A stretch of 27,466 nt of DNA from Chromera velia. Taxonomy: Eukaryota; Sar; Chromeraceae. Location of the stretch: positions 12,137 through 39,602 of the forward strand of contig JAHBMJ010000864.1 of NCBI GenBank assembly GCA_018398765.1. Reading direction: 5' to 3'. The translations under genes were made by a program, and so were the position numbers. Positions within the stretch are counted from its first letter, which is position 1, and each line of letters starts with the position of its first letter. This document shows, one piece after another, positions 2,384 to 21,696 of the stretch. The notes under the pieces are model-generated. The model made no database searches. It was not told the origin of the DNA and saw only the letters and a list, made by a program, of their open reading frames with translations.

Positions 2384-2438
2384 AGATCACTCGGAAGGTC
2401 ATTTTGTCTGAACGAACGGTCGACGGATTTCGGTCACG

Positions 2439-4637
2439 ATGATCAAGGCGGAGACGGGTGCCGTGCTTTTTGCTTGCACGGGCGTGGAGCCTCGGCAGGG
2501 GCAGACGCTGGTGGTTGTGGGAAGCAGCGCTGAGCTCGGAGGGGGGGACGCAAGTCGCGGTGTCACCCTCCATCAATTGAAGAACCCTGCCTTCTCAAGC
2601 GTGTGGATGTCTTTTCCGATCTGTCACAGTGCGTGTTCTAACGTCAGATTTCAGTTTGCGCTTGTCGGACCAGGTCTCGACAGTGTTGAATCGGGTGCGT
2701 CGGCGTCTGGTGGTGTGCCGTTGATCGCCGGTGCGTCTCTGGTAGAGGGTGTTCAGAACTCTTCTGCTGTTACCTCCTCAGCCCTTCCATCCGCAGTTCC
2801 CACAGACGATCGAAGTCATGACTGTCATGGGTACGTGACACTGTGTGAGCCTTTGGGGTGTGGGTTGCGGGAGATGGAGGTTGTTGATGGTGGGCTTGTG
2901 TTGTTTGGTGGGCGTTGGGGAGAGGGGGGAACTCAGGTGACTCCGTTGACATGGAATGACATGGTGACAGCGCAGCAGCAACTAGAGCAGGATGCGTCCC
3001 CCTCTGTCTCTGCAAAGTCCGACAGCGAGAGGGAAAGGGTAAGGGAGAGGGAGGGTACGGGTGACAGGGAAAATTTTGGGGGTCTGCCTGAGAGGGGCAT
3101 GAGAGGCAGCAGCTTCACTGTAGGTGATGGTGTTGTTGTCTCAGCTGCACCTCTGACTTTCGCCTTCTCAGAGAGAGAGGGTGAGAGGGAAAGAAAGAAC
3201 GGGGAGGGAAGGGCTGTGCAGTCTGAAGCTGAATTCTCCTCCAACAGAAGAAGCACGCTGTCGGTCCAGCAGGGGGGTTGTGGAGAGAGAGTGACACTGA
3301 GTGAGCTTGGTGTGGTGGGGGGTGGGGGCGTCGTGCCGATCACTGCGAAAGAAGGCATTCTGATGGCGTCTGTAGACTCTGCACAGAGAGGAGGTGCGTC
3401 TGTTTCCGGGGGTCGTCCTGAGACCTCTGAGTATGTGTCTACGCAGGCGCGGGGGGATGAGGTGATGGAGGAGAGAAGGCGGTATGGGAATTCTGATCAG
3501 GCAGTTCGATTCGCACCTGCAGCTGTGAAGAAACGGGGATGGGTGGGTGGGAAAGGGGGGGATCTGTCGGGAGGGAAGACTGCAGAGAGTGTGAATGGTC
3601 TGGCGGGGTGTGATGGTAGTGTTCTGATAGTCAGGGACGGTCATGCGGTGTCCCGAGAGGGGGAGTCTGTGTGTCCTTCTGCCGCCGCGTGTGAGGGGTC
3701 GAAGCGCCGCCGTCTCTCTTCTCTTTCCGTTGCTGTCTCTGTTTCTGGCTCTGAAAGGAGAGGGGGTGAAGAGCCGTTGGTGACAGAGAGGTCTTCCGTT
3801 CGTCCCTTCCCATCCGTCTTACCACAGCACTCCCACTGTCAGAAGAGCCTTCTCTCGTTTGCCAGTGACACTCATCCATTCAGAATGCCCAATGGAGACG
3901 TCGCATGCGAACGTGAGACAGTCTGCGGATTGCACGGAGAGGGGGAAACTCGTAAATGGTTCACAGAAGGGGAAAGTCTTAGAGCGGGTGAGCGGGGAAC
4001 AGCCACGGAGGCTTCCAAGAGCCCCCTTTGTCTCTATGACCGTTGTCACACAGAATGCGGGGGGGGAGGGAAGAAGCACCCTGTCACCTCAATTGTTCGA
4101 GACGATAGCACTAGAGGCGTTGGTGTGGGAAGAGAAGGGAAGACGAGAGAGTGCACAGGGGAGGTCAAGAGGGACCGTTACGGAAACATTCTCTGTCCAC
4201 ATGGACGGGTCCGCTGCTGTTGCAAGGAATGCGGAGGGAAGAGCATCTGTGAGCACGGTAGGCAACGGAGCAGGTGTAAAGATTGCGGAGCGAAGAGCTT
4301 CTGTGAGCACGGTCGACAGCGCTCTCAGTGCAAAGAGTGTGGAGGGAAGGGTATCTGTGAGCATGGTCGGAAGCGATCTGAGTGCAAAGATTGTGGAGGG
4401 AAGAGTATCTGTGAGCACGGTCGACTGCGGAACCGGTGCAAAGAGTGTGGAGGCAAGAGCGTCTGTGAGCACGGTCGCCGGCGCTGTCAGTGCAAAGAGT
4501 GTGGAGGAAAGAGTATCTGTGAGCACGGTCGGCAGCGCTACTACTGCAAGGACTGTGGAGGGAACGGAATATGTGTTCACAGAAAGCAGCGCCGCCACTG
4601 CCAGGAGTGCAAGCTGCTCTCAGTTCTTCAGCATTGA
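2439..4637 (+). CDS. CBM20-like domain protein with eight C-terminal EHGR Cys/His repeats
   Basis: A 732-residue single-exon frame. An in-frame TGA at 2409-2411 makes this the first Met. Residues 7-76 look like the first half of a CBM20 starch-binding domain (GQTLVVVGSSAELG, then NPAFSSVWMSFP and VRFQFALV). After a roughly 50-residue Ser/Gly-rich insert, residues 131-161 look like its last strands (CEPLGCGLREMEV, DGGLVLFGGRWG). CBM20 domains bind alpha-glucans, but the Trp expected after ELG is Gly36 and the later site-1 Trp position appears to be Cys136, so starch binding is doubtful. Residues 170-583 form a long, low-complexity Ser/Gly/Arg/Glu-rich linker. Residues 584-725 are eight 18-residue CEHGRxRxxCKxCGGK units, probably zinc-binding. 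No signal peptide or membrane segment is seen. The cellular role is unknown; a nuclear or cytosolic adaptor is a guess. Confidence 0.8.
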   Translation: MIKAETGAVLFACTGVEPRQGQTLVVVGSSAELGGGDASRGVTLHQLKNPAFSSVWMSFPICHSACSNVRFQFALVGPGLDSVESGASASGGVPLIAGASLVEGVQNSSAVTSSALPSAVPTDDRSHDCHGYVTLCEPLGCGLREMEVVDGGLVLFGGRWGEGGTQVTPLTWNDMVTAQQQLEQDASPSVSAKSDSERERVREREGTGDRENFGGLPERGMRGSSFTVGDGVVVSAAPLTFAFSEREGERERKNGEGRAVQSEAEFSSNRRSTLSVQQGGCGERVTLSELGVVGGGGVVPITAKEGILMASVDSAQRGGASVSGGRPETSEYVSTQARGDEVMEERRRYGNSDQAVRFAPAAVKKRGWVGGKGGDLSGGKTAESVNGLAGCDGSVLIVRDGHAVSREGESVCPSAAACEGSKRRRLSSLSVAVSVSGSERRGGEEPLVTERSSVRPFPSVLPQHSHCQKSLLSFASDTHPFRMPNGDVACERETVCGLHGEGETRKWFTEGESLRAGERGTATEASKSPLCLYDRCHTECGGGGKKHPVTSIVRDDSTRGVGVGREGKTRECTGEVKRDRYGNILCPHGRVRCCCKECGGKSICEHGRQRSRCKDCGAKSFCEHGRQRSQCKECGGKGICEHGRKRSECKDCGGKSICEHGRLRNRCKECGGKSVCEHGRRRCQCKECGGKSICEHGRQRYYCKDCGGNGICVHRKQRRHCQECKLLSVLQH
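4188..4613 (+). repeat. 54-bp tandem coding repeat, eight units (EHGR zinc-finger-like array)
   Basis: Eight in-phase units of 18 codons encode variants of SICEHGRQRSRCKDCGAK. The invariant pattern is C-x-H-x6-C-x2-C, giving four potential zinc ligands per unit. Unit 1 reads ILCPHGRVRCCCKECGGK, with Pro replacing Glu and two extra Cys. The final unit (GICVHRKQRRHCQECK) lacks the EHGR core but keeps all four ligands. Internal units differ mostly at the two positions after R and at Asp/Glu before the last Cys. Similar EHGR repeats occur in several algal and protist genomes, to my knowledge without an agreed function. Confidence 0.9.
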
Positions 4638-11054: not shown

Positions 11055-13575
11055 TCAGAAGCCCGCAGACCCTTGAGGAAGAAAGAACCCCCCACTCCCC
11101 CCTCCAAATGATCCTCCACTACCTCCACCACTGCCCTCCCCGTCTTCTTCTTCGTCCATCTCTGCCAGGGGCGTCCCTCCACCCCCCTCCTGACAGAACT
11201 CTTCATGGTCAGGGTCGGGGAGGGGAGCGCACATCGGGGTCTGGTCGTGCCTGCGCGGCGCGACGCCAACCGCAAAACCTCCATGCTGATGTCCGACCTG
11301 ACCGTTCATGCCTCCGTGATGTGCGTGCGCATGGACATGCCGCACCGTCCCGACGTCTCCCTCACCACCCCCCGATGACGCATGACTCGAGTGGCTGCGG
11401 GGAATGCTGAGCATCGACTGCGCGTCTGTTGACCTCGTCGCAGTCCTCACATGTCCTGCTGCTCTGACAGCAGACGAATGAGGAGACGCTCTTGCAGGAA
11501 GGGGAAGGCCCCAAGCGGCAGCCGCCTGCATGGGCTGCTGTTGCATTTGCTGCTGCTGCATCTGTGAATGCGGGTGGAAGGAAGGATGGAGAGGAGGGGC
11601 GCGCTGCTGGGCAGCATGGCTTTCCGCATCCCCTTCATGTACGGAGTCCTCTTCATGATCGGACACAGCCCCGACTGAGGACGAGCACCCGATATCGGCG
11701 TCATCAGACCTCGTGTCCCTGTGTCTGTCTCCTCCGTGAACCCCCATTAGGGCATCCCCTGCATGACCATGGCCGCCTTGCTGGATGAATTGAGGAGGAG
11801 GACCCTGGTGAGGCATGAAGGCGTACCTAGTTGCACCGGTCTGGGAGGCAGCTGCTGCCTGAAGAGACAAATGAGATTGCTGAGAGGGGTAGGGGGAGAA
11901 CGCAGTGAGGGAAGTTGAATGAACCTGCGGCGTGGAAGGCAGCCATGTGCTGAGAGGAGCGGGAGCAACAGGCCGCTGTTGAGTTGTGGGAGCCAAGAAC
12001 GGGTTTGGATTCTGCGGCTGTTGGGGAGAAGGAAAGTGGGTGAAGGGGGGGACCTGTCCGGAAGCCTGGGGCACTGTGGTAAAGGGGGTGAACCCAGGAG
12101 AACGGGGAATGAGGGCTTGTGCGGGTATGGGGACGAGAGGGAACAGCTGTTGGGGGGATGAGGCGCTAGCAGAGGATCCGGTGGAGCTGGACGAAGCTGA
12201 AGTTGAGAGGCATGGAAGGGGGGGAATGAGGGAGGGCAGTGCGGTGGTGGTTCTACTGCCCCTCTCTCTCTCTCTGTCTGCAGTCGACTGCTGTCCGATC
12301 CCTTTTCTTCCCGATCCTGAGCTCCTCTTCCTTCCCGGAGTTCTTTTCACCTTCGATCCATCGGAAGGGGGAGACTTCGGGGGTTTGCCTCCCGACCTCC
12401 TGCCTCCTGATGTCACAGAAGGACTCTGGGAGGGTGTCACGCTGCTGGTTCTGCCCTCCGAGGAACAAGGCGAACGGGGGGGGCTGTGCTTTCCTGGCGA
12501 CCCAGAATTTGCAGCACTTCGGTGGAAGGAGATGGTGAGCCAGTCCGAGCTAGCGGGAGACCGTGGGAGGGGGAAGGCCCAAAGGCCGTCTCCTGTTGGT
12601 TTAGTGCCTTGAGACTGGGAAGAGGCCCCAGCATTACCCAAAGTTTCCATCCCCCCATGCAACCCCAGCGATGCTCTCTGTACCTGGTACCGAGGCGGGC
12701 TGGAAGCCCAAGAAGAGATGGATGAGGAAGTCGAAGAGACGGAAGAGTGGTTGAAGGACCGGTCGGTGTCTGTGTCTGACGGGTGCTCTCCTCTCAACAC
12801 GCGTGCTGCCCTGCGCTGACGTTTCTGCTGCCGTCTCTCGTGTCTCTCTCCCTCAGTTTCTTCGCCCTGAGGTGCGCGGAGAGCCAGAGCTGTGGACGCT
12901 ATCTCCATGCTTGAAGAAGGAAGACGGGAGGGCAAGGCAGTCCAGTCTGTGCCTTCTCTGGAAGGGGAGGAGGCAATCTGAAGCTGTGCAAGCGAAGCAG
13001 TAGCCTGACAGCTCAGCGACCCTCCATCCTCCCCCCCCTCCTGTTGCTTCCCCCTTGTGTTTGTCGTTTGACGGCGTGACCTCTTCTGTCCTCTGCCAAC
13101 AGCAGCAGAAGAGGCAGCAGAAGCGGAAGCAGAGGGATCGTCCCCTGTCGCAGGAGGGAGAGGGGGTGTGAGAGAGGGACGAAGCCTCACGTGTGTGTGC
13201 TTAAGCAACTCATTTCTCTCCCCCTCAGAGAGACGATGGGAAACGCGCAGGGCCTCCTTCCACTGGATGGCACGCAAAAAAGCGCGCGAGACGTCATCCA
13301 GATCGACTGGCATGAAGCGGCGGCGGAGCACACGGTCTCCGAGAGGCAACTCTGCCCTCCACACTTTCTGCTTCGAGTCCCAATAGATCCCTGCAAACAG
13401 AGTTTTGAGAGAGAGAGGCGGGTAAGACATGAGAACCAGAAAAGAAGAATGCGCAAAACGTTGGACAAGGGTCAGGGAGATGAGGAAGGAAGAGGAAGAC
13501 TGAGAAAGGGGAACAGAGAAGCGGCGTATAGAGGGGCGGAGAGACTTTACAAACACAGACACCGAAGCTTTGAGA

Positions 13576-13622
<47 letters not shown>

Positions 13623-13640
13623 AAGAGAGAGAGAGAGGGG

Positions 13641-13690
<50 letters not shown>

Positions 13691-15420
13691 GAGAGAGAGC
13701 CTCAGAACTCATGAATCCACCCACCAGTGATCTTTTCTGTCCCCGGAGTTTCCGTGATGGAGACTTCAAGTGCGACCTTGACCTCTGGCGACCAGCCGAG
13801 AGATGCTGCGAGGAGCCTCTGGGCCTCTGGGTTCACAGGGGGCGTACGCATGATACCGAAAGAGAGGCAGCGCTCGACCTCCTGCTTCACCGACTTGGCA
13901 GCTTCGGATGAGAACGCGGTTTTCCTTTTCCTCCTTTCGCCAGTAGGAGAGAGACGGCTGTCTGAGGATGACAGTGACCGATGGTCGCTCTCAGAAATCG
14001 GCTTTGGGGCAGTGCAGGGGACACCTCCATGCGCCCAGGCTGGAACAGGAGACGGGATAATGGCACACGAATGGGGGGCGAGCGGGGATCTGACTGGTTG
14101 AGGTGGAAAAGAAGGGAGAGGCGGTTCTGCTGGAGTGACCATTTGAACGTCCTCGAGAGCCAGCTGCTGCTGTTGATGGTATGGGTATGTGATGGTGGGT
14201 GTCTGTGGGTTCTCCTTCTGTTGTTGCTGCCCCTTTAGAAACTTCAACTGCTCCACTGGCACCTTGGCAAGGGCTAAGTGGGAGAGGGTCGATCGGACGG
14301 CACTCGACGTTCCAGCGGTCAATCCACGCGTCTCGTCTTCTGCACTCTGCGCGACGGGAAGGGGGACGAGAGCTGTACATGATGCAGCTGCCGAGTGGTT
14401 TTCTTCTTCTGAGGCCATCGGCACGTCTGCACGACTCTCCATGGTCACTCCCATCGGCTCCTCGATCACTCCGGGGGACTGGTGGTGCAGAAGGGAGCCG
14501 TCAGAAGGGGGGCCGTCCCCCACGATGGGGGAGGAAGAGGCAGAGGCACGGTCGGAGGGCATGTGGGGAGAGACGGGCGAAACCGTTGCTGCTGTTGGTG
14601 CCGATGAAGAGAACACTGCGTGGGAGGCGGTATCCCCACAAGAGCCATGCAGTGCCGCAGTGGGTACAGAAAGAGTGGCTTCTCCTCCCTGGTGCCCCCC
14701 CTCAACAAACCCGGAGGCTGAGGGAGAAACGGGAGACTGGTACAGTCGCACCGCAGCATCAAGAGAGGACACCAGAGAACTGAGGGAAACAGGGAAAAAC
14801 CGCACCTCCCCCTCACCCCGTCTCCTCTCTATCCACCCGTTTCCTTGTGTTTCCGTTTGACCCAAATGCCCCCCCTCCTCTGAGGACCCCCATTCCTCTG
14901 TCCCTCTCAGACCAGTCCAATCGGTCTCTTCCGTCCTGTCCTGTCTCTGCCTTCTTACTGTCCAGCACCTCTCAGAAGAGTCCCAGGAAAGGGATCCAGA
15001 CGGACAAGAGAGCGATGGGAGGCCTGCGGAGACGGCTGACAAGAAGCCAGAAGCCAAGTTGGTCAGCTCCGTCTCCGCCAAGGTCGAAAGCGTTTGCCCT
15101 GAAGACACCGGAACAAACGAAGAGGGATGTTGGATGAGTAAGTCAGCAAGGAGAACATAAAAGATGAAGAGGAAGGAAATCAGAGACCAATGCCCACACA
15201 AATGGGAGGAGACGGAAACTTTGTAGGGAAGGGACAAGAGAAGAGCACTGTTGACGAAAGCGCTGGTCTCTCACTCACCTTCTGTCACTGAGAGGCCCGG
15301 TGTTCCGAGATTCTGCAGGCAGAGAAGCAATACAGACAGGAAGGTGGATTGGGAGAACTTCTTTGATGGGACATACAACCCTCGTTCAGGGGGACAACGA
15401 ACGTATGCGCGTACCTGCAT
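11055..15420 (-). CDS. Large AP2-domain (ApiAP2-type) DNA-binding protein, four exons
   Basis: Proposed join on the minus strand: 15420-15415, 15312-15279, 15098-13725 and 13390-11055, giving 1249 aa. Donors are gtacgc, gtgagt and gtgggt; acceptors are cctgcag, cttcag and tttgcag; phases agree. The ATG at 15420 is the only Met in its open frame before the first donor, but a further 5' exon is possible. One AP2 domain spans about residues 470-520: strands around GIYWDSKQKVWRAEL and VLRRRF, then the helix DDVSRAFLRAIQWKEAL. AP2 domains of this type bind DNA and are the main specific transcription factors of apicomplexans. A basic RRKRK cluster at 402-406 may be a nuclear localisation signal. 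The rest is Ser/Pro/Gln-rich with short poly-Gln tracts and ends in an acidic Gly-rich tail, typical of disordered regulatory regions. The gene diverges from the kinase gene at 16330. Target genes cannot be inferred. Confidence 0.8.
13391..13724 (-). other. AP2-gene intron splitting the AP2 domain
   Basis: The donor gtgggt starts at 13724 and the acceptor ctgtttgcag ends at 13391; the intron is phase 1 within a Gly codon. It falls immediately before the first DNA-contacting strand (IYWDSKQK), so the 457-codon N-terminal exon and the AP2 exon meet at the domain edge. The intron contains adjacent CA and GA microsatellites, which appear as TG and CT in the transcript. Confidence 0.8.
13576..13700. 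repeat. Adjacent (CA)n and (GA)n microsatellites in the AP2 intron
   Basis: About 44 bp of (CA)n with a cgcgcg interruption (13576-13619) is followed by about 75 bp of (GA)n (13624-13700). In the AP2 transcript they read as a CT-rich block followed by a TG-rich block. Both are wholly intronic, and length variation should not alter the protein directly. Confidence 0.9.
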
Positions 15421-16329
15421 TTCAGGACAGGCTGCAGATCCAGACAGATAGGGCCAGAGCGACCCGCAACTGAGCAATCTAGTTTGCTGCCACTGTCACC
15501 TGAAGCACTTTCTTCCCCTCTTCTCAACGGGAACGTGAACCCACTCGAACAATCAACGACTCTTACGACAGAAACGTTGCAGCACCGCAGCATCAATACA
15601 AGTTACGTTGATCTGATTCAGGCCCAACAGGTAGCTGTTCGGGAAGAAACCGCGAGCAAACATCAAACAGCGTGGCCGAAAGTGACCATGCTTGCTCAAC
15701 ACTTCCCTAGACTAGTGAAGAACTTCACGATCCTTCCATGGAGGCTCGAGACTTCGATTGACGTGCAGAGACTCGAAAAGCCGTCTCGCGCGCTCTTTTT
15801 TGTTGCAAGAGTTGCAAAAGCAAATTGTCTGGGACTGCGTCACGCGGTTATTCTATAGCGCGGTCCCGCTTGGCAGATTTTGCATGGGGCACATGTGGCC
15901 CGGCCCCGGCAATTATAAGCCCTTTCCCGTAAGTGCCCCTCACCCGGAACAATACGTGACCTGTTGCATGCGTGACTATAGCCTGTATCGCATTTCCTAC
16001 CGTTCGCACGGAGTGCAACGCGTTTCTTAATTTGCATGCGTTCCTCTCGATCTTCTTCCTGCTTGGCAGTGAGAGGATAACTGAGAATTTGTCTTGGAGA
16101 GCTTCGATTTGCGGGCTTTGGTATAGAGGCAGTAAAGCCGCTCCATGTAGCAGACTCCCTTCTTCGTCCTGCTGCTGCACAGCTCATCGTGTTGGCTCTG
16201 CAGCGCGGTTTCCTAGCTAGCTGTCTCGATCATTCGTGCTTTTGCTGATCACTTGACGTTGTTGTGACCATCTTTTGTCATTCGTGCTGTTCGGCTGCCT
16301 GACGCATTGTTGGGCGTTTCTGTGGAAAC
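15421..16329. promoter_or_regulatory. Divergent intergenic region between AP2 and MAP kinase genes
   Basis: About 0.9 kb separates the proposed start codons of the minus-strand AP2 gene and the plus-strand kinase gene. It must hold both leaders and probably both promoters. A TATA-like attataag lies at 15911-15918 on the plus strand. A TGA at 16300-16302 closes the kinase frame upstream of its ATG. A plus-strand frame at 15484-15858 has no ATG near its start and was not accepted as a gene. No known binding motif is obvious. Confidence 0.5.
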
Positions 16330-19300
16330 ATGTCGCACGAGGTGAGTATTAACTTACCTAGCAGTGCGCAGCTTAGTCCCTCGGAGGCACAAACAGGCGG
16401 GCTGCATGGGCCTTCTTGACCTTGATTCCTGTTTCTCTGCAGAGACGACGGAATGAGTGGCACGGTGTCTCCGATCGTTATGACATCAGGGCCGTGATCG
16501 GAACGGGATCTTATGGTCAGCTGGGCAGAGAAAGAGAGGAAATCGTATGTGGGGGTCGAGTCTGTTGAGTGAGGAGTGCTGTTGAAACAAAGGAAACGCA
16601 TGCTGTGTCAGATAGACTCGTGACCCAGAAAGAGAAGGAATTGGGGCAGAGGATGCAAATAGGGGCAGGTAGACAGGGTGCTCCCGGAAAGCATAGTAAC
16701 TATGCGTTACTTACCTAGTGGAAAGATAAATGGTTTTAGTGACACTATTCCGTTTCTCACCTTTGCAGTGGGATGTTTGACCACTTCTGCCCACGTCTCT
16801 TGAATCAACACATTCGTTTGAGTGCATGTGGGTGTGGGTATGCAGGCTCCGTGGCAGAGGCAAGAGACCTTCGGACGGGGTCAAACGTCGCAGTGAAGAA
16901 GATCCATCGGTAGGGCTGGCAGAATTTTTTGTGCGAGGCTGCTCGTGTCCCTTCTAGGTTGTCGGTGTGTTGTTCTTTCTTTAATTTTTCCTTTCCTTTT
17001 TTTCTAAATAATGTCTCTCATCTTTCAGAAGGTTCCTAGACGTGCTGCCCTTTTGCTTCCATGTTTTTGTTCACATTTCTGACTTCCTTCCTTGCTGTGT
17101 GAATACGCAACTGCACTCTCTCGTCTCGCAGTTTTTCGTTTCCTCCCCCGACGGCCTCAAAAAGTGTATTGGAGGGTTTACCGAAGTGCCAAAAATTCCA
17201 TTCTTCTACTGGCTTCAGTGTGTTTATGTTCTTGTCCTTTGTGATCCTGGCGACTGCAAGATGATCCACGATTCTTCCCTGCAGTGTGTTTGATGACCTT
17301 GTCGACTGCAAGAGAATACTCCGGGAGATCGCCATTCTGAACAGACTCAGCCACCCGTTCGTTGTGCGCCCCATCGATCTCTGCGTCCCCACAGACTTGG
17401 AACGGTTCAATGTGAGTTGAGTTGAGTTGACCGGCTGGTGGATGTCGTGACTGCGTGCGTCATTATAAGCCATCTGAGGGGGGGAGGCAAACGTGTGTCT
17501 CATAGTGAGGGTAGTCTTTTCCTTTTGTGTGTCTGTTTGATCGCTTCTTGGCCACTCGAGTTTTGTATCTGTTCATCTGATCAGGTTTTCCCCCTCCATC
17601 CATGCACATCTGCAGGAGTTGTTTCTCGTCCTCGAAATTGCGGACTCTGACTTCAAGAAACTCTTCAAGTAGGTCGATCAGCGCGCGCTGTCTCTTTTTC
17701 ATACAGCCTTCCTCTCAAACAATACAGGACAGGGCAGTTGGTGTTCCTGTCTGCCGTTTATTTATTTGTCCACTTCTGAATTTATCCATCCAGCTTTTCT
17801 TTCTGTCCTGCCTTGTGATTGCTCTGATCCATCCTTCCATGCTCCCTTCCTCCGAGGATATGCTTGCATATGCCTGCCTGGCTGCCTGCCTGCAGGACCC
17901 GCGTGTTCCTGGGGGAGGTGCACGTGCGCGTCCTTCTGTACAACCTGCTCGTGGGAGTCAAGTACATCCACAGTGCCGGGATCTACCACAGAGACTTGGT
18001 TGGTGCATGGGGGGGGCGGGGAAGGGGGGTCGTCTGTTGGGCAGGGAAGGGGGGGAAGAGGAGATGATCCGAAACGGAAAGGGAAGGGAAAGTATGCGAC
18101 AGATGTTTTCTCGCTTGCTTTGGCTAGGCGTGCTTCGAATTGATGTGTCCGTCCGTGTGTTTCTTCATCCAGTTCATATCCCTTTCTGGCTGACTTTCTT
18201 TCTTTCTTTCTTTGTTTCTGCAGAAACCCGCGAACTGCCTGGTCAACCAGGACTGCACTGTGAAAATCTGGTCGGTTGTTTTTGTCGGTCTGTCTGTCAG
18301 CTGTCTCTTCGAACACGCCACTAGAACGGACACACAGACAGGAAATTGGAAAAGCATGTGGGACTATCGACAAGCAGTTCCCTTCTCTTTCTCCGTCTTC
18401 TGTTTCTTTCTCTCTCCGCGTTTGCTTGTCCGTCACTTCTGTTTTCTTGTCCTGTCTGTTTTTTCGTCGGGATTCCATTCTGATCTCATACGTTCGTCCT
18501 TGGTGCGTGCAGCGACTTTGGACTAGCTCGGACTGTGCACGACTATTGCAACGGCATCGAGACGCCCTCCCACCAAGCGTCGACAACCGCCTCGTCAGTC
18601 GCTCCCTCCCTCGGCATGCATGCATGCGGCCTTTCTCTTCTTCTTCTTCTTGTTGTTGTTGTTGCCTCTCTCTCTTTTCTTCTCTCTTGCTTCCGTCTTT
18701 TCTCTGACTGCTCTTTCCGAGGGTCCTTCTGGTCGATCCCGAAATCTGTCTTTACTGCCGAGCAAATTCTTGTGCCCTTCAATCTTTCTAACTGAAATGA
18801 ATTCACTCCACTGACTGCAACTGCTGCAGGGAGACGGCGTCGCCTCGGACAGCAAGCCCGCCGTCACAGTCCGTCAGCCCGCAGCCACAGCAGGGCCACA
18901 CCGCAGCCCCTCCCCACTCTGCCCCCGCCGCCTCGAAGGACGGACCAGCAAGTGGAAATGGAGAGACCGGAGGACCGATTCGCCGTCTCGCCAGCAGAGG
19001 CGGTCCCGTGACCAGGGGGATGGCACAGGCGATCGAATCATTCCGACGCCTCACGGAACGGGCAGCGCCCCCCCCTCCCCCACCTCCCCCCCCTCCACCC
19101 AAAATCAAGAGAACCCTAACAGCTCATGTGGTCACACGATGGTACAGGGCGCCAGAGCTCATTCTCCTTGAAGTCAGTCAGCCTTCCTTTTGCACCCTCT
19201 TTCCGTTCTTTATTTATTTATTCCAGAAAATATGGAGCTCATTCTCCTTCAAGTCAGTCAGCCAGCCAGGCGTTCGTTCAGTTGGTCAGACAGGAAGGCT

Positions 19301-21696
19301 GTCGGGGTAGTCAGGCAGGCTTTCAGTAAACCAGTCACTCAAGGCGAGTTTGCAGGTCATTTACTGAATGAATAAAATAGTTTCCCTGGCTGTCTCTCTC
19401 CTTCCTTCTGCTTGCAGGAGTCGTATAGCGAGGCTGTGGACCTCTGGGCAGTCGGCTGCGTGTTCGCTGAGTTGATGAACATGATGAAGACGAACCTGCC
19501 GTTTCCAGAAGACAGAACCGCGTTGTTCCCCGGGGGATCGTGCTTCCCTTTGTCACCTGACAAGAACGATTACAGGTAGGCGTGTGTTATCTCCATTTCT
19601 TTGCCTTTTTCTTTCTGCTTTTGCTTCGGTTTTTTTCTCCGATCTCCTTTATTGCCTGGAGCAAAAAGAGGTCCCGTGTGACAGAACTTTTCCTGAAATT
19701 CACGAGGGGCCCTTTGCACTGTCAATTTTTGTCTCCTCCGTGCTCGTTCTCTTTTTCTGTTTCTGCCCTCTGCTCTCTCTGCGCGTTGGCAAACGCACCC
19801 ACGCAAAGCCCCTCTCTTTCATATCTTCCTGCACTGCTACCTGCCGGCCATTCGCACACCACACGAACAACCACACCTCAATCCCTCCCTCCCTCCCTCC
19901 CTGCAGGCACGGCGTCTCCTCGTCCTCCTCCAGGTCAAAGATCCAGGACCAGCTCTCTCTGATCTTCAACGTCATCGGTACTCCCTCAAAGGAAGACCTG
20001 CAGGGATTGCAGAAGACGGATGCGCAATCGTCAGTCGATCTGTCCGTTGTTTGTTTGTCTCCCTTCATTATTCCTTCCCTCAGCCTGCCCCTGTTTGGAA
20101 TGAATGGATGGATGACCACTCCACCTATCTGACGTTCCGTTCCCTCCCTGCAGTGGCGACTTTGCCTGCCACAAATGGTAGAGGGTGTGAAAAGAGGCGT
20201 CGTAATTTGCTGCAAATACTTTGTTGGGCTGTCCGTCTGGTTGCTTGTTTGTTTGTGCAGGTATGTGAAGGGATTCGGTCACAAGCAGAGGCAGGACCTT
20301 CGGGCGAAGTTTCCGGGATCCTCGGGTTCGTCTCGTTGGGGCGTGTGTTGGGGAATCTATCTGCATGTCTGCCTGTTGTCTGTCCGTACTCCCATCTGTT
20401 TGTCTTCCTGTCGGAGAAAGAAAAAGAGGGAACGGTATAGTCAGTCTGGGTGCGAAGCTGTTGAGGAACGCCTGTGGTGTTCATGAAGTCTGGCAAGCAA
20501 CGAAAAAAGACACACCAGAATTACCCTTTGAGAACCAACGAGTGAGCACGCAGGGTGTTGCACGTGTTGCAGTTCTATCCAGTCTGTCTGTTGGACTCTC
20601 TCCAAATTATCTCTCAACATCCTCCCTCCCTCCCCCCCTCCCTCCCTGCAGAGGCTGCCCTGGACCTTCTCGCGCGTTTCCTAATCTTCAACCCTCAGAA
20701 GAGAATCACGGCAGAGGACGCACTCGAACATCCGTTCTTCGATGGGGCAAGGGACAAGAAGCTTGAGGTGAGTTTGCTCTCTCTGCCTTTTCATTTTCTC
20801 ATAGAAGGACAGTGCGTTTCCCTTCTGTAGACCCTTCACAGAACAAGAAGAAAACCTTTTGACTCTTGCTTCGTTATGGCATGCAGGTGGACGCTGAGGG
20901 TCCCTGCGTCCTTCCATTCGACGACGACGCAGCTCTGACTGAGGAAGAACTCCGGTAGGCAGGCCTCCTCTTCTCTTTCTTTCTCGGGGAATGATCGAAG
21001 GGATGGGCCGTTGATGGACTCTTCCTTCCTTTTGGTTCCTGCACGTGCGACCCTGTTTGTCGTCTTTTCCTTCCGTGCTTTGATGACTTGCTTGCCTGCT
21101 CTACCCTTTCCCTTTCTAGTTCGAATTGTGTTGTTTTCGTTCGCTGCGTTCCAAATTTGGAGGCAGCAGCTCTGTTTTGCCACTTTTCTCAGTTTTTTGG
21201 CGAAGGAGTCGCTGACCTATCCAATGACTCCGTTGTCCCTTTCCTTTTTTTGCACTTAGTTCTACAACCTTACATTTCCTTTTTCGTTCTTTAACCCTTC
21301 TTTTCTAGTCTAGCTGTCTTCTTTTTTTGGCTGAACCTGTTTTCTCCCTCCCTCTCATGGCCCTTCTTCCTCAAATGTACAGAACTAAACGTATGTACGT
21401 GCAGCACTGCCCTTCTTCGAGAGGTCGGCCGGTTCCACCCCGAGGTCCTCCAAGCCATCCCTTCTGCTGCAGGGCAGCCTCCGTCTGCAGCAGCAGTTTC
21501 GGCACCGCAGCAACAGCACGGGGGGCTCTTGGCACCCCCCACGTCTATGCACCCGCACTATCACCACCACGCGCACCCCCACCACCACCACCCACCCCCC
21601 CAGCCCATCCACGCCCCAGTTCCCCCTCCTGTCAGCAGAAAGGGGCCCCTGCCCCCTCCCGCACGGGTGTCTTCCTCGTGTCGGCGCGTCCTCTGA
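16330..21696 (+). CDS. MAP kinase related to apicomplexan MAP-2, fifteen exons, TAH activation motif
   Basis: Exons: 16330-16341, 16443-16515, 16846-16909, 17285-17411, 17616-17668, 17896-17998, 18224-18270, 18513-18593, 18830-19172, 19418-19575, 19907-20029, 20261-20325, 20652-20767, 20887-20954, 21405-21696; 574 aa with all phases consistent. It phosphorylates Ser/Thr of protein substrates. All catalytic landmarks are present: Gly loop GTGSYGSV (24-31), Lys46, helix-C Glu64, HRD with Asp143, Asn148, DFG at 161-163 and APE at 294-296. KKLFK, LLYNLLVGVKYIHSAGI, HRDLKPANCLVNQDC and GSCFPLSPDK closely recall Plasmodium MAP-2 (compared from memory). Where classical MAPKs have TXY this has Thr284-Ala285-His286; Plasmodium MAP-2 has TSH. 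About 117 residues separate DFGLAR from TAH, against about 12 in ERK2. The domain ends at FHPE (488-491), followed by a His/Pro-rich tail to 574. The in-frame stop at 16300 supports this start. Confidence 0.93.
17874..17895 (+). repeat. TGCC-repeat acceptor tract of kinase intron 5
   Basis: Tandem tgcc/ctgc tetranucleotides run directly into the ctgcag acceptor of exon 6. The polypyrimidine signal here is effectively a short microsatellite. Confidence 0.8.
18009..18055 (+). other. G-quadruplex-capable G-rich block in kinase intron 6
   Basis: Seven or more runs of three to eight G lie within 50 bases, starting about ten bases after the gttggt donor that follows the HRDL exon. The G-rich strand is the coding strand, so the pre-mRNA could fold a quadruplex next to an atypical 5' splice site. 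A splicing effect is inference. Confidence 0.6.
18188..18214 (+). repeat. (TTTC)n tract near the kinase intron 6 acceptor
   Basis: Tandem tttc tetranucleotides form the polypyrimidine tract that ends at the tttctgcag acceptor of exon 7 (18224). It is one of several simple-repeat acceptor tracts in this gene. Confidence 0.8.
18636..18665. repeat. Trinucleotide repeat (CTT)n-(GTT)n in kinase intron 8
   Basis: Five cTT-type units are followed by four GTT units in the intron between exons 8 and 9. It is purely intronic and near neither splice site. Confidence 0.8.
19155..19263 (+). repeat. Intronic duplicate of exon 9's 3' end and donor site
   Basis: The 29-base word at 19155-19183, covering the last 18 bases of exon 9 and the first 11 of intron 9, recurs at 19235-19263 with a single mismatch (G at 19170, C at 19250). 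Copies are 80 bp apart. The second copy carries an intact gtcagt donor, and ttattccag lies 10 bases upstream of it. It could act as a decoy donor or bound a 26-nt cryptic exon. Either use would break the kinase frame, because neither 80 nor 26 is a multiple of three. Confidence 0.9.
19881..19906 (+). repeat. (CCCT)n acceptor tract of kinase intron 10
   Basis: Five tandem ccct units lead directly into ctgcag before exon 11. A near-identical arrangement, ccctccct plus ctgcag, precedes exon 13 at 20622-20651. Confidence 0.85.

Follow-up and report, generated by a model that had tools for sequence, protein, structure and literature searches.

The window, a 27,466-nucleotide stretch of Chromera velia DNA, contains a MAPK2-type protein kinase gene on the forward strand. 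We rebuilt the gene model from splice sites. The 16 exons join into 582 codons in a single open frame, from the ATG at 16330 to the TGA ending at 21696, and an in-frame stop lies upstream of the ATG at 16300. The 15 introns are 83-450 nucleotides long, and all of them start with GT and end with TGCAG. Pfam Pkinase matched the 582-aa protein at 186.8 bits, split over two stretches. All catalytic motifs are intact: GTGSYG (residues 24-29), VAVKK (43-47), CKRILREIAIL (58-68), HRDLKPAN (141-148), DFG (161-163) and APE (294-296). The gene and the parts of it discussed below are as follows.

16330..21696, + strand: MAPK2-type kinase gene, 16 exons, 582 aa, start codon to stop codon
18224..18270, + strand: exon 7, end of the catalytic loop region (KPANCLVNQDCTVKI)
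18513..18593, + strand: exon 8, DFGLAR and the initial 20 loop residues
18594..18829, + strand: intron 8, phase 2, within the activation loop
18830..19172, + strand: exon 9, the remaining loop, TAH and VVTRWYRAPELILLE
19014..19064, + strand: putative helix, residues 249-265, from a single-sequence AlphaFold2 model of the exon-9 peptide
19068..19100, + strand: run of 11 prolines, residues 267-277, adjoining KIKRTLTAH; a short tandem repeat was called at this site
19119..19127, + strand: codons of Thr284-Ala285-His286, read from the sequence
19173..19417, + strand: intron 9, phase 0, after LILLE
21405..21696, + strand: exon 16, C-terminal tail rich in His, Pro and Ala

Exons 8 and 9 are read in one frame through DFGLAR (residues 161-166), 117 further residues, TAH (284-286) and VVTRWYRAPE. 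This spliced reading bears out the original prediction, which had Thr284-Ala285-His286 preceded by a stretch of about 117 residues after DFGLAR and had placed the insert mostly in exon 9; exon 8 holds only 20 of the loop residues. His286 replaces the Tyr of the TxY motif of classical MAPKs (ERK1/2, p38 and JNK type), so that the dual-phosphorylation motif is absent and, as had been predicted, a single phosphorylatable residue is left. With its catalytic core intact, the kinase is most likely active and switched via Thr284 alone, judging from its sequence.

Elsewhere in the window, an open frame at 2412-4634 (+ strand, 741 aa) gave a weak match to the starch-binding family CBM_20 (24.2 bits; cut-off 23.3) and by eye has Cys-rich EHGRxRxxCKxCGGK repeats near its end. 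Pfam matched no family in the long ORFs at 11055-13832 and 13702-15270. In the former (- strand, 925 aa), the stretch LFAGIYWDSKQKVWRAE looks AP2-like by eye.

Coding status of exon 9

Skipping of exon 9, splicing within it and a sequencing error at the TAH codons had been named as ways in which the insert or the motif might be spurious. Exon 9 is 343 nucleotides long (3n+1), so its skipping would shift the frame and lose VVTRWYRAPE, and no working kinase would be possible. Its coding frame has no stops, and the other two frames have one and two. A TGCAG acceptor for internal splicing was sought in all 343 nucleotides and none was found; of 27 AG dinucleotides, seven would preserve the frame as acceptors, and none is of the TGCAG type. 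An exon/intron score built from trinucleotides in the remainder of the kinase gene gave +53 bits for exon 9, although this is a modest tool, being below zero for all 15 introns but also for five of the 16 exons (5, 6, 7, 10 and 12). The middle codon of the motif is GCT, compared to GGC in both TGH copies in the same genome. These are two base differences, which makes one sequencing error an unlikely source of TAH. We also searched the DNA for another, nearly identical gene copy in which the substitution pattern of exon 9 could be read; the search returned the window and 15 short partial matches, none of them suitable.

It is highly improbable that exon 9 is partly intron, with the C-rich run before AAAATCAAG serving as a pyrimidine tract and the true loop being short. 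The C-rich tract is indeed followed by AAG AGA (19068-19110), and an in-frame AG at 19110 would yield a short loop. However, the TGCAG that ends every intron of the gene is absent from exon 9, and the exon, with its open coding frame, is T-poor (T fraction 0.117) compared to the T-rich introns (0.341). Moreover, the matching exon of the probable sister gene, C1593, likewise carries a long loop, and other kinases of the same genome have 57-142 loop residues in a single open frame. A misplaced intron at the C-rich tract was rejected in view of the acceptor type, the composition and the long C1593 loop. We conclude that the 117-residue loop appears to be translated.

Relationship to MAPK2

The three highest matches in a PDB search were 3rp9 (471 bits), 3n9x (429 bits) and 3nie (417 bits), which we take to be apicomplexan MAPK2 chains (Pfmap-2 and TgMAPK2). 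The next match was plant MPK6 at 229 bits. In a tree of 16 rows, the window gene, three copies from its own genome and the three PDB chains formed a seven-row clade with 100/100 support; L026 and L048, having no single open frame, were left out, and the rows held no MAPKL1 sequence. Once the loops were excised, the core of the window gene was 61.5-72.5% identical to the other six MAPK2 rows, compared with 34.7-46.6% for the nine rows outside MAPK2. By PDB scores and tree, the window gene is a MAPK2 orthologue, consistent with its earlier designation as a MAP-2 relative; it has TxH in the form of TAH, an insert before TxH, its closest sequence matches in MAPK2 and a place in the clade.

A typical MAPK has about a dozen residues between DFG and the motif. 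The original prediction used this yardstick, which fits typical MAPKs but not MAPK2: counted from the PDB alignments, 36 residues separate DFGLAR from the Thr of TGH or TSH in 3rp9, 31 in 3n9x and 34 in 3nie. Since these relatives already have 31-36 residues, the excess in the window-gene loop is ~80 residues rather than 105. The proposed check against orthologues, made with these three chains, returned TGH or TSH with an insert, and Ala was not among their middle residues. MAPK2 kinases as a rule lack the Tyr (PMC9560070), and among the members compared the middle Ala alone is new. Pfmap-2 is described as carrying TSH with an insert of ~26 residues before the motif, and its orthologues in the surveyed apicomplexan genomes as carrying TSH or TGH and an insert (PMC3239843, 2011). 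The text of PMC9560070 gives TxH as the MAPK2 motif, though TxH is also found beyond MAPK2. As TxH and the insert before it are published for MAPK2, the two features first regarded as surprising are family traits in kind. Beyond the published traits, only the loop length and the Ala in the motif are left.

MAPK2-like genes in the C. velia genome

The genome searched has 4,040 contigs totalling 177.8 million bases; it gave many kinase hits, with dozens of MAPK-like matches. It has four MAPK2-like genes, the window gene (TAH, loop of 117 residues) and the following three.

C1681: TGH, loop of 33 residues; loop and downstream sequence in one exon, without the loop intron and without intron 9
C1593 (L050): TGH, loop of 75 residues; phase-2 loop intron and phase-0 intron after LILLQ; an assembly gap removes the 3' part
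C3631 (L062): SEH, loop of 57 residues; no intron after LILLQ; read only in pieces

The C3631 motif has Ser in place of Thr and an acidic middle residue. Intron 7, between C and DFG, is common to all four genes. The window gene and C1593 share the phase-2 loop intron and the LILL[EQ] intron, both of which C1681 lacks. No alignment is possible around the loop introns, and their shared origin is read from phase and neighbourhood. In the tree the two genes were grouped at 91/93, under the 95/80 mark, and on this sequence evidence they are probable sisters. In the simplest history, the ancestor would have had a short TGH loop; on the branch shared by C1593 and the window gene this loop would have lengthened and two introns would have been acquired, and the window gene would afterwards have exchanged Gly for Ala.

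The ends of the loop, DFGLART and KxKRxLTxHVVTRWYRAPE, are conserved among the aligned copies, and little of the middle can be aligned. Together with the range of 33-117 residues among the copies of this genome, this favours a tolerant linker. The tripeptide SPR is common to the loops of the window gene, C1681 and C1593 in their alignment, a resemblance on which we rest no claim.

In the window gene, the end of exon 9 with its donor (19155-19183) recurs 80 bases downstream within intron 9 (19235-19263), with 28 of 29 bases matching. At Glu301 the exon has CTTGAA, and the copy in the intron has CTTCAA, giving the Gln that the relatives have in LILLQ. On the minus strand in C1593, the exon end and donor occur three times in the matching intron (reverse-complement positions 4154, 4255 and 4369; offsets of 101 and 215 bases). 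These copies perhaps reflect repeated tandem duplication at the splice site, possibly tied to the gain of the intron after LILL[EQ].

Composition and predicted structure of the loop

The window-gene loop is composed of 20% Pro, 13% Ala, 11% Ser, 9% Thr, 9% Gly and 5% Gln. It is, as first described, long and of low complexity. The original label of Ser/Pro/Gly/Gln-rich was only roughly right, as Pro and Ala are highest and Gln is at 5%. By the charge-hydropathy line, the loop falls on the disordered side (0.404 vs 0.429), as does the C1681 loop, and the C1593 loop falls on the ordered side (0.468 vs 0.423). A single-sequence AlphaFold2 model of the exon-9 peptide had a mean pLDDT of 63.4; its block means rose to 82-90 around residues 248-277, a part that includes the proline run, and no three-residue run fell below 50. 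The confident helix at 249-265 and the absence of any run below 50 suggest that the loop is perhaps partly structured; the alignment held no relatives, so this helix is a hint only.

Ser/Thr-Pro sites in the loop were not enriched (4 observed vs 4.7 in 5,000 shuffles), and the idea that proline-directed sites cluster in the loop was rejected. Basophilic motifs numbered 4 vs 1.9 in shuffles, a count reached by 11% of the shuffles. These predictions are best summed up as a tether that is disordered for the most part, with a possible helix and, beside the KIKR anchor, a putative polyproline rod.

Activation loops of other kinases in the genome

The pattern RWYRAPE, which picks up only kinases with this stretch uninterrupted, some of them not MAPKs, was found at 25 sites in the genome. 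Four were set aside: L032, L069 and L086, with no DFG in the open frame, and L046, which has DMG followed by 60 residues and TEG. Of the 21 readable loops, 19 could be read from DFG or DLG within a single open frame; the other two are those of the window gene and C1593. Their lengths in residues and their motifs, from longest to shortest, are:

Loops 1-7: 142 TSY, 117 TAH, 100 TES, 80 TSY, 75 TGH, 69 TSH, 65 TGH
Loops 8-14: 62 TGL, 57 SEH, 45 TEY, 45 TDY, 39 TEY, 38 TEY, 33 TGH
Loops 15-21: 32 TPF, 23 TEY, 21 TDY, 15 TDY, 11 SEY, 8 TEY, 8 TDY

The window-gene loop is the second longest. Loops of at least 32 residues were found in 15 of the 21, with the proviso that a small intron might go unnoticed when only one frame is read. 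Long loops are thus common in the kinases of this genome, and the 117-residue loop is no singular event. Loops of at least 32 residues occur in all nine kinases without [TS]xY and in six of the 12 with it (Fisher p 0.019, Mann-Whitney p 0.036), a comparison that was picked after seeing the data, on related genes, and is treated as a lead only. TGH and TSH also occur outside the MAPK2 clade, in L033 (C3110) and L024 (C306), with loops of 65 and 69 residues.

Discussion

In ERK2, arginines from the alpha-C helix, from HRD and from DFGLAR bind the phospho-Thr, and the counterparts of R290 and R293 bind the phospho-Tyr. The window gene has counterparts of the arginines that hold the phospho-Thr (in CKRILREI, R142 and R166), so that a switch by Thr284 only is to be expected. 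It also keeps R290 and R293, despite the His in the Tyr position. The 117-residue loop is an extreme form of a known MAPK2 trait. We consider it likely that the window gene encodes a MAPK2 orthologue with a Thr284-only switch, and that the family loop, enlarged on the branch of the window gene and C1593, acts chiefly as a length-tolerant tether that is disordered for the most part. With TxH, phosphorylation of Thr284 alone would switch the kinase, and a dual-specificity MAP2K, which phosphorylates both Thr and Tyr, would not. Activation would come from the kinase itself or from a different one, such as a NEK, the Plasmodium candidate. The family loop of 31-36 residues would have grown to 117, probably near-neutrally, in a line that also gained the loop intron, between the fixed ends DFGLART and KxKRxLTxHVVTRWYRAPE. 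Pfnek-1 phosphorylates Pfmap-2 and is named as its activator (PMC3239843). PMC9560070 describes the role of the motif His as unproven and the activating role of NEKs as lacking rigorous validation; it also reports that chromerids encode MAP2Ks, with ~75 MAPKs in C. velia and ~40 in V. brassicaformis. By the domain boundaries in its Table 1, Vitrella kinase domains span ~391-405 residues, which suggests that loops are short in Vitrella.

It is rather unlikely that the loop is a lineage-specific regulatory module. In such a module, access to Thr284 would be controlled by the helix (249-265) together with the polyproline rod beside KIKR (267-277), which would serve as a latch or as a docking site, for instance for a proline-binding domain. 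The helix of the single-sequence model with its high block means, the position of the proline run directly beside the conserved KxKR anchor and the retention of long loops in many other kinases of the genome are consistent with such a module, as is the TgMAPKL1 loop of ~100 residues, which is called potentially structured (PMC9560070). However, the helix and the proline run are absent from the C1593 and C1681 loops, and the counts of proline-directed and basophilic sites speak against it. Relatives with the same loop were not found, so conservation cannot be demonstrated. The window-gene loop may have a function peculiar to it. It is very doubtful that the gene is a decaying copy, in which loop growth and the change from Gly to Ala reflect relaxed constraint, backed up by C1681 with its TgMAPK2-like loop and motif. 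The branch of C1681 (TGH, 33 residues) is near zero, compared to 0.40 for the window gene and 0.47 for C3631, as such decay would have it. Yet every catalytic motif is intact, the frame is open across 16 exons, and core identity of the window gene to TgMAPK2-type 3rp9 (67.8%) is as high as that between C1681 and the window gene (67.0%).

A wider reading appears improbable: that the MAP kinases of this genome as a group dropped the TxY dual switch and grew long, disordered, Pro/Ser/Ala-rich loops, so that activation would depend on how long the loop is and what it contains instead of on recognition of TxY by MAP2K, and the window gene, with its helix and polyproline rod by a lone Thr, being one rebuilt switch. 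If the long-loop pattern holds on transcripts, it would represent repeated rebuilding of the MAPK switch. In a literature search that covered the text of PMC9560070 (its figures include a tree with C. velia), no listed paper dealt with Chromera MAPK loop length.

MAPK2 occurs across Alveolata and is essential in Toxoplasma (PMC7667025), Plasmodium requires it for male gametes (PMC9560070, PMC7667025), and work in Toxoplasma and Plasmodium has assigned it roles in centrosome duplication or male gamete formation (PMC7667025, PMC9560070). How MAPK2 is activated without a MAP2K and without the Tyr is presented as an open question (PMC9560070, PMC7667025). The four MAPK2 copies of this free-living relative, from 33 residues with TGH to 117 with TAH, are natural variants for probing the loop and the middle residue, and the value of the finding lies in their presence within one genome.

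Like apicomplexan MAPK2, the window gene has TxH, an insert between DFG and TxH, the LFPGxSCFPLSPD stretch specific to the family and intact catalytic motifs. In contrast to it, the window gene has Ala rather than Ser or Gly in the middle of the motif, a loop of 117 rather than 31-36 residues, no long N-terminal extension and a His/Pro-rich C-terminal tail. Among other Toxoplasma kinases, TgMAPK3 carries TGH, and TgMAPK1 has a predicted insert of 93 residues (PMC3100106). The latter represents MAPKL1/BARKY, which resembles the window gene in its insert of ~93-100 residues from DFGLAR to the phosphorylation lip (PMC3100106, PMC9560070) but is another MAPK subfamily, with TDY where the window gene has TAH. 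Judged by the tree of families, the MAPKL1 insert and the window-gene insert have independent origins.
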